Positions 43,227 to 50,248 of a stretch of 64,000 nt of DNA are shown here, one piece after another (position 1 is the first letter of the stretch; each line of letters begins with the position of its first letter). A program made the translations under genes and the position numbers. Where the stretch lies: the NCBI GenBank assembly GCA_002102555.1, contig MCFL01000004.1, positions 744,001 through 808,000 on the forward strand. The letters run 5' to 3'. This DNA is from Catenaria anguillulae PL171 (taxonomy: Eukaryota > Blastocladiomycota > Blastocladiomycetes > Blastocladiales > Catenariaceae). Under the pieces are notes generated by a model. The model saw nothing but the letters and a program-made list of their open reading frames with translations, searched no databases and was not told the origin of the DNA.

Positions 43227-46200
43227 ATGGCCAAAGCCCCAGGCTCCAAGAAATCCCAGCGCGCAAAGGATCACTCTGCTGCGCGCAAGCAGGCAAAGCA
43301 GGACGCGGCCTCACTGCGCAAGGCAAAGCAAAGGCTGCGCGAGACAAAGCACATTGTGCCCGAGACCGAGGTCGACACCGACTTGCTGTCGGACGAGGAT
43401 CTCCAATTCATTGAGCAAAATGCACAGTTTGCGCCCTGATTGCCGAGACCAATGTCAACGCCCTGACAAAGTACGCCCGGTAGACGCTAATCCCGTCATT
43501 GCAAAAAAAAAAAAAATCGCCAAGTGCTGACAGATCGTCCTGAATGCAATCCACAGGAAGCAACCAAAGTCAAGCAGCCCGCATACGCTCGTCGATCGGT
43601 TGCACCACCATCCGACAACGACGACGATGACAGCGACCTCGATTTGGACGGCGCAGACATCGTTGCAGAATCTTCGGACGAGGAAGGTGATGAATCCGAC
43701 TGCCAGCTCTTATCGCAAACCCGCACCGACCCGCAAATCCAAATCGCTCCCTGATCTCGCCCCCGAATCCGACTCGGACGACGAAATTCACCAAACACTT
43801 GTCGAGGGCAGCGACGAATCCGATGCTTCGGACAACGACTCGGGCTCTGACGGCTCGGCCAGCGACTTTGACGATGACAGCGATGGATCTGGTTACGACT
43901 CGGTGGAAATGGACGTGGAAGCGATCCCTTCGGATATTGAATCGTCGGACGAGGAGGCAGAGGTCGAGCTGCCTGAAGTCGTGACTGCTGCCGAGCTGGA
44001 GCGCCAAGAGGCTCGTGCTCGCAGTGCGCTCAAGAAGCAACAAAAGTTGGACGAAGCCAGTGGCAAGAGCAAAGGAGGCGATGCAAGTGCCAATGGCGGT
44101 GACGCAGATGAGGAGGCAGAGTACGAGCAGCGTCCGCGGACGGCGCAATCGCTTGGCAAAGTGGGTCGTGCCATGTTGCCCATCAAGACGGCCGACGGCC
44201 GACTTGTGACTCGCGAGGCAGACAGTGACCAGGAAGCAGGCGCTGGGGCACAAGATAGCGAAGAAGAAGATAGCGAGGACGAGCGTGCGGCCGCTGCTGC
44301 CAAGCGGAAAAAGGCCGATGCGGCCATTCGCGCCAAGAAATACGCCGACCTGGACGAAGCCGAGCCTACCATGCACCCGCTCGAACGCATCGCGATTGTG
44401 TGCCAACGCATCATTGATTCGCCCGAAGACAATATCTCGCTCATCTCGCGCATTGCTGAGCTTGTCAAGTACCGCGGCCCAGCCGTTGGCGGGATTGGCG
44501 CCGAGCAAATCCAAGCGGTCGCCATTGCCTCGATCGGCCAAGTGTTTCTGGACGTGATCCCTGGATACCGCATCATCGAACTGACGGCCGAGCAAAAAGC
44601 CGAAAAGGTGTCCAAGGATGTCCGCAAGTTGCGCACATTTGAGCAAACGCTTCTCGCCACCTACCAAAAGTTCCTCACGGCTCTCGACGGCGTCGTCAAG
44701 CATCGCATTGCGCAAGCAACAAGGTCGTCCGCCATCAAGCCCAACGAGCCCGCACGTATCGCCATGGACATCTTTTGCAAGCTGCTCATAACACATCCGC
44801 ACTTCAACTTTCGTCTCAATGTCATCAACGCCATTGTCAAGCGGCTCACTCGCCGCGAGCTCATGCACGGCATTCTCGAGACGTTGCGTCAAGTGTTTCG
44901 CCGCGACGAGGAGGGCAGTGTGTCTAGTGAAACCGTGCGCTTGATTGCCCGACTCATCAAGACGGTGGCATACAAGGTGGACCCGGAGGTGTTGCGTGTC
45001 TTTATGCACTTGCGGCTCAAGCACGAGCTGACGCTCGAGGACTTGATGAAGAAGGGCAAGGGCGGATCGTCTGGTCCACAGCACAAGGTCAAGAAGCCAT
45101 CGCGCAAGACAAAGGACCAGTACGTCAACAAGAAACAGCGCAAAAACTCGAAATTCACCAAGGAGGTGCTTGCCGAGCTCAAGGAGGCCGAGGCCGTGGT
45201 TGATCTCGAGGACCGGAAGCGCCAGCACAAGATTACGCTCGAGCATGTGTTCCTGACCTACTTCCGTATTCTGAAAACGTCGCCCTACTCGCGAGTCATG
45301 CCCGCTGCCCTCGAAGGCCTCGGTGCCTTTGCCCATCTCGTGTCGATCGAGTACTTTGACTCATTGTTCCGCGTCTTCAAGCTCTTGCTCGCCGACCCTT
45401 CGATCGCATACGAATCCAAGCTGTCCATCATTGCCACAGCTAACCGTGTTGTCTCTGGCCAAGGCGAGGTCCTTCACTTGGACCTGGCCGAGTTTTACGA
45501 GGCGGCATACGCCGTGATTGGGTCGCTCCGCACCGTCGCCTTGCCGCCCAACTCGCCCGTGTTCCGCATGGCGCTCGAAGTGGTCGAAACATCGGTGCTC
45601 AAGCGCAAGTGCTCGCCTACCATCATCCTGGCCATGTTTGTGCGGCTGCTCTCACTTGCAGCCTCGGTGGACGACCCGGGCGCCGTGCTCGCCATCCTGT
45701 CGTTGTGTTCCACCTTGTTTGCCAAGTTCCCGTCGGTCTTGCGCAAGGTCCTCGACTCGCCCGCCGACCGTGCTGCGGGCGTTGCGGATCCCTGGACACA
45801 CGACCCGCACCTAGCCAACGCCGCACATGCTGCGCCGTACGACCTGGCGCTGCTTGCAGCCCACTGGCACCCGGACGTGCGTGCTGCGGCCAAGGCCGTC
45901 ATGAAGGACATGGATCCACGCAATGCGACAACGGGCAGGGCGCCCAGCCGGATTCTGGGCTGGCGCGAGTGTATTGAGCGGTGGGCGTGGGAGGGCAGTG
46001 CGCGCAATGTGCCCGAGATTGCAACTCTCGACCCGGCGAATCGCAAGGGTAAGAAGGGGGCAGCAAAGCACCAGCAGCAGCAGGACAAGCAAAACCGCAA
46101 GACTGAGAGGAAGCATTTGCAGGAGCAATATGCCAAGGATCAGTTGGCAAAGCCCGGGCGCAGGCAGCGAGATGACGACGACGATGGAGCAGAGGCTGAC

Positions 46201-46371
46201 GAGGAGCCGGCGGTGCAGAACGGCAGGGCAGGTGACGGGGAGGCGTTCAGCACCTACGAGCGCAGAGGCGGGAGCGGTGGACGTGGTGGACGAGGAGGTG
46301 GTCGTGGTCGTGGTCGCGGAGGCGGCCGAGGTCGAGGTGGGCGAGCGTTCAAGAAGCCAAGGATGCATTAA
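43227..46371 (+). CDS. NOC3: Nucleolar complex protein 3
   Basis: Nucleolar factor for 60S subunit maturation and export, with a reported role in replication initiation. Exon 1 is about 43227-43470, intron 43471-43556 (86 bp, GT-AG), exon 2 to 46371; about 1000 residues. The N terminus is Lys-rich, followed by DLQFIEQNAQF and an acidic region. The core runs HPLERIAIVCQRIIDSPEDN, then VRKLRTFEQTLLATYQKFL, LRQVFRRDEEGSVSSETVRL, then HVFLTYFRILKTSPYSRVMP and GLGAFAHLVSIEYFDSLFRV, as in the NOC3/CBF family. The C terminus is an RGG box (GRGRGRGGGRGRGG). One base is missing near 43433 (GCGCCCTG, GCGGCCCTG expected) and the acidic part changes frame near 43700; both look like consensus errors. Confidence 0.9.
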
Positions 46372-46515: not shown

Positions 46516-48372
46516 TTACAAAATGGACTGGTTCCGCTTGGCTTCCCAAGATTGAATGGGCACCGCCACAGGTGCCGCCAAATACCCATGCCCGGCGGCC
46601 TCCTCCTGCATCGTCTGCTGCATCTGAACCAACATGGCCTGCTGCGCGGCGTTTCGCCGCTCCAACATCTCAGTACGCAAGTTCTGGTAATTGCGATCCA
46701 AGGCAAACTCGACAATACACCGATTCTTGATGAGCGACATGAGCGGCCACGTGGACCGCTCGCCCTTGGCCATCCAGTAATCCATGTCGGCATTGGTCGG
46801 ATTCGAAAACAAGCTGCGGTAATCTTCGAGTGTCAGCTCGGGGGTGATGGTGACGTCGCCCGTGATGGTTTCGGGCGCAATCCATCGTGCAACGAGGCTC
46901 GGGACTAGGCCCACGTAGGCGGCCTGCGCGGTGCGATGCCGGACCTCCATGAGAATGGCTGATGCGACGCGCGCCAAGAACGAGTGGCGCTCGCGCCAAC
47001 CACGCAACACCATGGGCGCGGCCAAGGCGCCCGCTTGCGAGACAATCAGGTGGTTGACGTTAAAGAGTTCTGCCAGCCGGTGGTGCGGCGAGGCGTCATT
47101 GTCGAGCGCGCCAAACGTATTGTTGGAGTGTGCTGAAGAGGAGGAGTGTGTCAAGGCCGTGTAGTAGAGCCCGGCGCCTGGTTGTTTTTTGGCCGAGTTT
47201 GAGCCCGAAGGGTGTGTGAGCAGGCCGCGCGGACCGGAGGCGGCGGATCGTCGGGAAAAGGACGAGGAGGGAGCATTGTGTTGTGTCCATGTGATGTCGG
47301 CCGGCGACCACTTGGTAATGATACCCTTGTCGTCCTTGGCAAGCAAGTGCACTTGAGAATACAGCGGGTAGGTTGCCGCTGTGGATGCACATGCCGCAGA
47401 CCAAATGAGGACATTGGGTGCGGTGAGGTAGTTGAGCACTTTGGGCACCTCGTTGGGGCGCGCAGACGACACGGTGATGTTGAGAATGCGACGAGTCTTG
47501 TGGAAGGCTTCCTCGAACGTGACGTCGCCCACATTGGACCGCACGCAATCTTCCAACACCTTCACATCGAGCGCATGCCCGTACTTTAGCCAGCGCGTGA
47601 GCTTTCGGCGAAATGTGCCACGCTGTCCGACTTGCTCAAACGCCGACAAGTTGATGCCGCCGTGGCGCAAAACATGCTGGAGCTCATCGTCGGAATGGAT
47701 GCAAACGAGTGCGGCAATAAGCGCGCCGACTGCAGAACCGGAAATGACACGCGGAAGCAGTTGCTGCTCGTGCAATGCCTTGACGACGCCAATGTGGTAC
47801 AGACCAAACGTTGCTCCGCCTTCCAAAATGAGCGCCGAGCATCCAAACGACTGCTTTGTCTCGTGAAAGAAATCCAGTCGGGCTTGGAACGACAGGTCGG
47901 GGTGATCCGTGGTTGCAATGTAGTTGAGCGAATCCACGACTTCGCGCGTGTACTCTTGGATGAGGCGTTTTGTGCCAACGTAGGATGTGCAGTACAACCG
48001 CGGGTCCGAAATGCCACCTAAATTGCGAAGCAGGCCCGAGCGCAGAGAATACATGGACGAAATGACGTCGCCTGCCAGGCGATCATTGCGCAACTTTGAC
48101 AAGCGGTTGTGAATGAGGCGATGGTCGTATTCTGACGATTCTGGGTCGGCCTTCCAGTTGTCGTTGCCCAAGGCTCGGTCGAGTTGCTGCGCGACGGTGC
48201 GCCATTGTGGGTAAGTATTGCAGAGGGAGAGCTGGTGGCGGAGCTTGTCGAGTTGCTCACGCGAGGCCAAGACGGGCCGCGACCCTGGGAACTGGACCGA
48301 GATGGGAATCAGCCACGCAACGAGCGATAGCGCCCAGGCACACACCGATGAGAGCAGAGAGGCGACAGGCAT
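46516..48372 (-). CDS. Patatin-like (Tgl3/4/5, SDP1) lipase homologue without catalytic Ser-Asp dyad
   Basis: Single exon, 618 residues. It has an N-terminal hydrophobic segment (about 8-25), then the fungal/plant triacylglycerol lipase layout: YTREVVDSLNYI, LSFQARLDFFHETKQSFG, the oxyanion loop LILEGGATFGLYHIGVVKAL (residues about 178-197), LNITVSSARPNEVPKVLNYL, then APNVLIWSAACAST and LAELFNVNHLIVSQ. The nucleophile elbow should read GSSxG. Here it is GSAVG, with Ala214 (codon GCA at 47733-47731) in the serine position. The catalytic Asp motif, normally W-x-DGS-x-DNDLP, reads NTFGALDNDASP, with Phe420 in place of Asp; the NPH that usually follows is also lost. Both dyad residues being absent argues for a true pseudoenzyme. 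Divergent from DGAT2. Confidence 0.88.
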   Translation of the reverse strand: MPVASLLSSVCAWALSLVAWLIPISVQFPGSRPVLASREQLDKLRHQLSLCNTYPQWRTVAQQLDRALGNDNWKADPESSEYDHRLIHNRLSKLRNDRLAGDVISSMYSLRSGLLRNLGGISDPRLYCTSYVGTKRLIQEYTREVVDSLNYIATTDHPDLSFQARLDFFHETKQSFGCSALILEGGATFGLYHIGVVKALHEQQLLPRVISGSAVGALIAALVCIHSDDELQHVLRHGGINLSAFEQVGQRGTFRRKLTRWLKYGHALDVKVLEDCVRSNVGDVTFEEAFHKTRRILNITVSSARPNEVPKVLNYLTAPNVLIWSAACASTAATYPLYSQVHLLAKDDKGIITKWSPADITWTQHNAPSSSFSRRSAASGPRGLLTHPSGSNSAKKQPGAGLYYTALTHSSSSAHSNNTFGALDNDASPHHRLAELFNVNHLIVSQAGALAAPMVLRGWRERHSFLARVASAILMEVRHRTAQAAYVGLVPSLVARWIAPETITGDVTITPELTLEDYRSLFSNPTNADMDYWMAKGERSTWPLMSLIKNRCIVEFALDRNYQNLRTEMLERRNAAQQAMLVQMQQTMQEEAAGHGYLAAPVAVPIQSWEAKRNQSIL

Positions 48373-49216
48373 GGTCGGTCAAGCATTCATGGGTTGGAGA
48401 GTAATTGCATCGAGTGATCAGTGATACTTTGTGACCTTAAGTTGTGCTGGGACGCCTTCCCATTCTCAACTGTTGCTTTTGCCTGCGGTTTCTCCATCGC
48501 AATTTGCTGCCACGTGCGTGATTCCTTTTTTCGTTCGTTGGTCAGGCAAATCGAGGAGTGGGGCCAGGTATGACATCACTTCTTTGTCCACATCGACTGG
48601 TGAAGGAAGTTTCTTGAGCAAGACGACGAAGACCGGCGGCCCAGGAAATATCACTCCATGACACGCCAGCGGCGGTGGTAGCAGCCAATAGCAGCAAAAT
48701 GGATGTCGCAGACATAGCATACCTACGAGGCATGTTCCGGAGAGCCCATGACGATAATTCGTCATCGCATCATTGGAGCTAAGAACTGGGATGGTGATCG
48801 GCCGAACTGCAAAACGCCAGGATTGCATCACTTGCCGGTCCACCATTGCCTTATCGAACAGGAGTTCTGCAAATATACGTGACGACGGACGACGGGCGAC
48901 GCTGGTGGACGGATATGGCGGCAAAGCTGGCCGCCGCCGCTCAGTAATACGTCAACCGGCAGCTGGGAAACGGCGGCGAAATCGCCAAAATCGACCCAGA
49001 TCCGGGAGTCCGTGCGTGCGTGCTTGACGCCCACACGGATCTGACAGATTTGAGAATCCCTCAAGTACGACACTTGGCCCGCCCTCGCTCGCCATTCTGT
49101 CTCCATTGCCGTCATCAACCATAACTTACATACATGTGCCCATGGATAAAGCAAGCACAAATACTCTCTGAATTGACGCAAGCACATTGTCCTGCTCCAT
49201 CCATTCCGTTGCAACC
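48373..49216. other. Divergent promoter of lipase homologue and DGAT2
   Basis: 844 bp shared upstream region of the two lipid genes. Small open frames occur (one at 48542-48733 minus begins with a hydrophobic stretch) but none is convincing. Confidence 0.45.
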
Positions 49217-50248
49217 ATGGTCATCAAGCTCGCACCGCTCAATGTGCCCATGCACCGCCGCCGGCAAACCGTGGGCGTCCTCTCGTGGCTACTCCTGCTC
49301 CCAATCTCCATCTCGCTCTTTCTCCTGTGCCTATACTTCACCTACACTCGCGCCCTCGCCCTCGCATATTTGACGTGGATTCTGTTTTGGGATCAGTCCC
49401 CCGAAACGGGCGGCCGCCGCTCGTCGCTGATCCGCCGCCTCAAGATCTGGAAGTGGATGCGAGATTTCTTCCCTGTGGTCCTTGTCAAGGAGGCCGAGCT
49501 GGATCCTTCGCGCAACTATGTCTTCGGATACCACCCGCACGGCGTCATTTCGCTTGGTGCTTGGGTCAACTTTGCCACCGAGGCAAACAACTTTTCTGGC
49601 CTGTTTCCGGGCATTCACTTGCGCCTGTTGACGCTGTCGTCCAACTTTTTGTTGCCCTTCTTCCGCGAAGTCATCCTGTGGCTGTCGATTGCATCCGTGT
49701 CTCGGCGGTCGTGCGAGGCCGTTTTGAACAAGGGTCCTGGGCATTCCGTGTGCATTGTCGTTGGCGGCGCACAAGAGTCGCTGTACGCTAAACCCGGCAC
49801 GCTCGACTTGGTGTTGCGCAAGCGGCTCGGGTTTGTCAAGGTGGCCATCAAGAACTCGTCGTCGCTTGTCCCCGTCTTGTCGATTGGTGAGAACGAAGTG
49901 TACAACCTCATCTCGACACGCAAGGGATCGCTCGCCTACACGGTCCAGCAGTCGTGCAAGAATGCGTTTGGGTGGACCGTGCCTCTTTTTTCTGGCCGAG
50001 GCATCTTCAATTACTCGGTCGGCGTCATGCCACACCGCCGGCAAATCGCAACCATTGTGTGCAAGCCCATTCACCCGGACGAGGTCATGGGCCATCCCAT
50101 CAACCCAGAGGCTCTCACACCCGAGGAACTCAACGAGATTACCAAGAAGGTGCACGAGGCGTACATTGTGTCGCTCATGGACGCTTGGGAAAAGTACAAG
50201 GATCAGTATGCGCCAGAGCGCATTCAAGAGCTGAGGTTGGTCGAGTAA
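49217..50248 (+). CDS. DGAT2: Diacylglycerol O-acyltransferase type 2
   Basis: ER and lipid-droplet enzyme adding acyl-CoA to diacylglycerol, the last step of triacylglycerol synthesis. Single exon, 343 residues, slightly shorter than human DGAT2 (388). The N terminus carries a double hydrophobic hairpin (LSWLLLLPISISLFLLCLYF, then LALAYLTWILFW), which anchors the family in the membrane. Catalytic motif YHPHG at about residues 105-109 (GYHPHGVISLGAW). Later signatures: VVGGAQESLYAKPGTLDLVL, RKRLGFVKVAIKN, VPVLSIGENEVYNL, GRGIFNYSVGVMPHRRQI, then GHPINPEALTPEELNEITKK and AYIVSLMDAWEKYKDQY. All expected conserved blocks are intact. The ATG at 49217 (MVIKLAPLNVP) is the first in frame. Confidence 0.96.
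   Translation: MVIKLAPLNVPMHRRRQTVGVLSWLLLLPISISLFLLCLYFTYTRALALAYLTWILFWDQSPETGGRRSSLIRRLKIWKWMRDFFPVVLVKEAELDPSRNYVFGYHPHGVISLGAWVNFATEANNFSGLFPGIHLRLLTLSSNFLLPFFREVILWLSIASVSRRSCEAVLNKGPGHSVCIVVGGAQESLYAKPGTLDLVLRKRLGFVKVAIKNSSSLVPVLSIGENEVYNLISTRKGSLAYTVQQSCKNAFGWTVPLFSGRGIFNYSVGVMPHRRQIATIVCKPIHPDEVMGHPINPEALTPEELNEITKKVHEAYIVSLMDAWEKYKDQYAPERIQELRLVE

Follow-up and report, generated by a model that had tools for sequence, protein, structure and literature searches.

A Tgl3-type patatin-family protein of Catenaria anguillulae without the catalytic dyad, a predicted pseudolipase

The minus-strand gene at 46516..48372 of the window, the 64,000-nucleotide stretch of Catenaria anguillulae (Blastocladiomycota) DNA analyzed here, encodes a Tgl3-type patatin-family protein in which the catalytic dyad is absent. 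The evidence for loss of the dyad is strong at the sequence level, and we posit that the protein is a Tgl3-type pseudolipase that, by analogy, most likely serves as a non-catalytic partner of complete-dyad paralogues (probability of roughly 0.55). It belongs to a fungal Tgl3 clade in which the dyad residues are often missing.

The gene and its catalytic sites

The reading frame extends from an ATG at 48372 to a stop at 46516 on the minus strand and comprises 618 codons with a terminal stop only, in keeping with the undisturbed frame reported by the first-pass annotation of this DNA. The window is part of a 41.07 Mb assembly of 457 contigs, and a search of this genome found the Tgl3-type gene in a single copy. 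Pfam places a DUF3336 domain (residues 36–173; 47854..48267, minus strand; E 3.9e-42) ahead of a patatin domain (residues 181–342; 47347..47832, minus strand; extent according to the Pfam match), the Tgl3/4/5–SDP1 layout that had been proposed, and the predicted fold is that of a patatin (mean pLDDT 84.5, low mainly in an insert and at both ends). The N terminus carries a hydrophobic helix (residues 4–21; 48310..48363, minus strand; best 19-residue hydropathy 2.03) that is helical in the fold model, with 10-residue pLDDT means of 55–76, and is possibly a lipid-droplet or ER anchor. A gene for a NOC3/CBF nucleolar protein (43600–46371, plus strand) is convergent with the Tgl3-type gene, with 144 bases between the end of its frame and the stop codon of the latter. 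On the other side lies a DGAT2-type acyltransferase gene (49187..50248, plus strand; Pfam DAGAT, E 1.2e-84; start codon set mechanically), a gene of TAG synthesis; since the two genes are divergently transcribed and their frames lie 814 bp apart, they may share a promoter region.

The glycine-rich oxyanion loop expected of active Tgl4/5 and SDP1 lipases is retained in the alignment as GGATFG (residues 185–190; 47803..47820, minus strand), as previously noted. The nucleophile elbow reads GSAVG (residues 212–216; 47725..47739, minus strand), and the replacement of Ser by Ala214 (codon GCA) is confirmed; no GxSxG, the motif expected of an active patatin-type TAG lipase, occurs anywhere in the protein. 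Nor is there any DG in the entire protein, and hence no DG[ST] before FNVN. The expected place of DGS is spanned by an insert (residues 379–424; 47101..47238, minus strand; pLDDT below 50) that is followed by the conserved stretch SPHHRLAELFNVNHLIVSQ (residues 428–446; 47035..47091, minus strand; alignment A1). The first-pass annotation had matched FGA to DGS and set Phe420 in the place of the catalytic Asp; the Asp is indeed missing there, but both the spacing to FNVN and the alignment put Gly421, not Phe420, opposite it, and residue-by-residue matching means little in this region because residues 379–424 are modeled with low confidence and are probably disordered. The NPH that normally follows VSQ is also lost, AGA standing in its place. 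With both residues of the patatin dyad missing, we infer that the protein should not hydrolyze esters by the Ser–Asp mechanism.

The NCBI model of the gene (BCR44DRAFT_115525; P0001, 472 aa, partial) lacks 55 residues, 380–434, as if they were spliced out. These residues correspond to 47071–47235, and the model also omits both ends of the protein. The excision is probably wrong at least at its end, because the relatives P0002–P0006 keep SP(H/Y)xRL(A/V)ELFNVNH in the alignment. An enumeration of in-frame GT..AG excisions of at least 32 nt that fall within codons 340 to 440 and leave the frame open returned seven candidates, none of which (0/7) creates a DG or a canonically spaced Asp, and removal of an intron was therefore rejected as a way of restoring the Asp.

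It is extremely improbable that the gene is decaying or that its unusual sites are an artefact of gene modeling or sequencing. Such an explanation could draw on the partial, spliced NCBI model and on the single base that separates Ala (GCA) from Ser (TCA), from which the earlier account had argued that one base error could explain Ala214. The difference is indeed of one base; however, the frame is uninterrupted, identity to the Allomyces protein is 73% over 441 tree columns, and related genera, which already contradict this reading, have the same elbow. Five other proteins of Blastocladiomycota (P0002–P0006, from Blastocladiella, Allomyces, Coelomomyces, Sorochytrium, and Paraphysoderma; the phylum was checked for three and is taken from general knowledge for the other two) all have GSAVG and are 53–68% identical to the window protein in the search alignments, which makes a sequencing error at Ala214 very unlikely and points to a protein under constraint. 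The substitution is thus found in related species, as the first-pass annotation had proposed to check, and its view that selection has kept the protein holds. Sequencing error and pseudogene status were both rejected on the shared elbow and the open frame.

Relatives and the Tgl3 clade

We compared the catalytic sites in three sets of matches, obtained with the window protein (best 120 of 1540), with its paralogue C152 (best 120 of 582; the Tgl4/5-type set), and with yeast Tgl3 (best 120 of 235) as queries. These best-120 counts include P0001, which is the gene described here, and P0007, an Allomyces protein whose model is garbled; among the matches listed there is no named Yarrowia or Lipomyces Tgl3, and in the rows used the C413 paralogue represents the SDP1 type. 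Tgl4/Tgl5-type lipases (e.g., P0121, from C379) share with the window protein the DUF3336 and patatin domains and the same fold; unlike it, they have both Ser and DG[ST] in 120/120 cases (best 120 of 582), and in the model of P0121 a predicted strand ends at the catalytic Asp. The nucleophile column is Ser in all 120 of these proteins, whereas it holds A 68, S 35, G 12, T 2, E 2, and Q 1 near the window protein (best 120 of 1540) and A 64, S 53, G 2, and one gap near yeast Tgl3 (best 120 of 235). The Glu and Gln residues occur in the Conidiobolus-type proteins P0073, P0079, and P0062 (GSEMG, GTQIG, and GTEIG). A DG[ST] within 25 residues before FNVN is found in 120/120 Tgl4/5-type proteins (best 120 of 582), in 0/120 near the window protein (best 120 of 1540), and in 1/120 near yeast Tgl3 (best 120 of 235). 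Among the matches listed, the Tgl3 side therefore has DG[ST] in 1/240 and Ser in 88/240 proteins, the sole DG[ST] case, P0335, being located in a loop of low similarity. A canonically spaced Asp is present in 118/118 evaluable Tgl4/5-type proteins (best 120 of 582), in one of the 120 near yeast Tgl3 (best 120 of 235), and in 12 of the 120 near the window protein (best 120 of 1540; 11 with Ser and one with Gly), which comprise seven named chytrids, four metagenome proteins, and one Mortierella protein. At the sites compared, one match that is labeled as SDP1 of Anthurium amnicola (P0008) is similar to the Tgl3-type proteins found in arbuscular mycorrhizal fungi; judging by these sites, it may be a fungal contamination of a plant sample.

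A tree of 106 hand-chosen rows (104 of the 360 listed matches, the window protein, and C413) over 503 columns, with the trait columns excluded, separates 90 Tgl3-clade rows, including the window protein and yeast Tgl3, from 16 complete-dyad rows (bootstrap/SH-aLRT 100/99), and a quick tree gives the same split with an SH-aLRT of 99. The window protein thus has the DUF3336–patatin architecture and the clustering apart from the Tgl4/5 type that mark the Tgl3 orthologue group. It joins Allomyces, Blastocladiella, and Coelomomyces (100/100) within a group of nine rows, all with Ala (100/99). Ala or Gly is also found in 24 of the 33 rows of Ascomycota in this tree, and the nine rows from Saccharomycetaceae and Saccharomycodaceae have GSSMG or GTSMG. 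Across the 90 Tgl3 rows, both Ser and Asp occur in 9, Ser only in 24, Asp only in 1, and neither in 56; as to a coupling of the two losses, these rows offer few independent pairs (3 and 4, on starred branches), and the sign test gives a p of 1. These comparisons support the description of the window protein as a pseudoenzyme within the Tgl/SDP1 family, but loss of the dyad was not recent, because the Tgl3 clade is without DG[ST] in 239/240 of the proteins listed, and over half of these proteins do not have Ser at the nucleophile.

Eleven polar residues (R111, R116, D283, E287, R432, E435, E476, H479, R480, Y532, and W533) show at least 90% conservation among the 57 non-Ser rows of the tree and less than 40% among the 16 complete-dyad rows; in the Ser-bearing Tgl3 rows, 33 in number, their conservation is 0.64–1.00. 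Because Ser-bearing rows have them too and there is no Ser, Cys, or Thr among them, they do not have the look of a replacement nucleophile; none was found among them, and with no polar residue confined to the non-Ser members this candidate was rejected. N-terminal hydrophobicity is not a clade-wide character, since 51 of 82 rows pass a value of 1.6 and yeast Tgl3 reaches 1.24.

Gain and loss of the serine

Parsimony on the 106-row tree requires at least five changes of the Ser, and a loss-only history takes eight losses. A two-state model with regain is better than loss-only by 9.7 log units on the best tree and by 2.7–12.9 log units on 20 of 1000 bootstrap trees, which lack branch lengths and are a weak control. 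This model gives the Saccharomycotina ancestor a P(Ser) of 0.005 (106 rows) and, crude as it is, makes the ancestor of the Tgl3 clade non-Ser (P(Ser) 0.002), a state that we doubt because several chytrid members keep Ser together with a canonically spaced Asp. With Ser imposed on the clade ancestor, P(Ser) of the Saccharomycotina ancestor is 0.015; with Ser imposed on the Ascomycota ancestor as well, it is 0.276.

Two Ser-bearing proteins that are nested among Ala rows were omitted from the 106-row tree, namely P0321 (from Ogataea philodendri) and P0341. In a 109-row quick tree to which P0321, P0341, and P0293 were added, the minimum number of changes rises from five to seven, loss-only is worse by 25.9 log units, and the three P(Ser) values for Saccharomycotina are 0.006, 0.015, and 0.237. 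P0321 shares 86% identity with the Ala-bearing Ogataea protein P0304 (GSSIG vs. GSAIG), a change between Ala and Ser that looks recent. P0341 shares 83% identity with an Ala-bearing Sungouiella protein; P0321 and P0341 are each one database sequence. Their position among Ala rows indicates that Ala and Ser are easily exchanged at the nucleophile site, an argument for regain that also allows a regained Ser to do little. Regain of Ser in the yeast lineage, inside a serine-less ascomycete clade, is favored rather than shown, the sampling being incomplete. We put forward tentatively, at a little under even odds, that early fungal Tgl3 was a dyad-less regulator and that the Saccharomyces cerevisiae lineage (Saccharomycetaceae with Saccharomycodaceae) later re-evolved the Ser, but not the Asp of DGS.

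Proposed function and implications

A partner role calls for lipases to be served, and the paralogues of the same genome, whose comparison the first-pass annotation had suggested, provide them. DUF3336 matches fall in five places of the C. anguillulae genome, namely the window gene, C152 and C379, and C413 and C69; there are two further DUF3336 loci, each on two contigs, and both are complete for the two catalytic residues (as read in C152, C379, and C413), unlike the window protein. C152 and P0121 (C379) have GTSAG with QDGS, and C413 has GASGG with WIDGSVESDLP in a single frame, with introns between. The genome therefore encodes two lipases for a dyad-less partner to serve. Other patatin-family genes of the assembly (L001–L004 and L006–L007) come in pairs of similar score whose members lie on different contigs, as they would if a diploid assembly had been left partly unmerged; the window gene has one copy. 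We hypothesize that the pseudolipase resides on lipid droplets or the ER, where it would recruit, stabilize, or activate the complete-dyad paralogues, on the model of Yarrowia Tgl3 acting on Tgl4.

The known Tgl3 proteins bear on this hypothesis in both directions. Saccharomyces cerevisiae Tgl3 (YMR313C; P0241) resembles the window protein in its DUF3336 and patatin domains, in belonging to the same 90-row clade, in having no DG[ST], and in carrying SPxxRLxELFNVN; it differs in having a nucleophile, Ser237 (GSSMG), and an HX4D at residue 298. Mutation of Ser237 reportedly abolishes its lipase activity. Yeast Tgl3 is described as the major TAG lipase, with lysophosphatidylethanolamine acyltransferase activity as well (PMC4446107), and a clade member described as an active lipase counts against the pseudolipase reading. 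In contrast, a strain engineering study (PMC4815080) states that TGL3 of Yarrowia lipolytica may be lipase-inactive alone, with a key motif missing, and that it positively regulates TGL4, and a review (PMC7762315) likewise presents it as a positive regulator; the source given by both is Dulermo and others 2013. By this description a motif-less regulator Tgl3 is already on record, and Yarrowia Tgl3 (YALI0D17534g) is like the window protein in missing the key lipase motif, a likeness drawn from secondary sources for a protein whose clade membership rests on its name.

Two other functions were weighed against that of a partner. The acyltransferase activity ascribed to yeast Tgl3 (PMC4446107) could mean that the window protein works as an enzyme through another active site or has another activity, such as that of a lysophospholipid acyltransferase, for which the dyad is unnecessary. 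E476, H479, and R480 are strongly conserved clade-wide, and the HX4D of yeast Tgl3 has aligned counterparts in Rhizophagus and Quaeritorhiza; however, Tyr replaces that His in the window protein (WLKYGHALDV), its sole HX4D starts at residue 342, where most rows of alignment A1 have no His, and no Ser, Cys, Thr, or further polar residue is restricted to the non-Ser members, and we regard this reading as quite unlikely. The protein might instead be a structural or lipid-binding droplet protein that works independently of other lipases, its patatin fold being a lipid-binding shell, as the retained oxyanion glycines and fold, the hydrophobic N-terminal helix, and the adjoining DGAT2 gene would suggest. 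We consider this unlikely as well, given that the nearest functional precedent works via Tgl4 and that the oxyanion loop drifts in some non-Ser lineages (e.g., QGGTALA in Mucorales).

It is common practice to regard Tgl3 genes as coding for TAG lipases. We recognized no description of dyad loss across Tgl3 in the literature searched, whose coverage leaves out most subscription papers, and a survey of Mucoromycota lists TGL3 among lipases, with no mention of missing residues in the portion available. If many Tgl3 proteins are non-catalytic, as we propose for that of C. anguillulae, correction is needed in models of lipid metabolism and in the engineering of oil yeasts wherever TGL3 counts as a lipase. 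The yeast protein, which has the Ser but no DGS, offers a direct test of how a patatin lipase could work without the Asp, and if regain is true, the yeast TAG lipase of the textbooks would have been resurrected as an enzyme and would use a non-standard base for catalysis.
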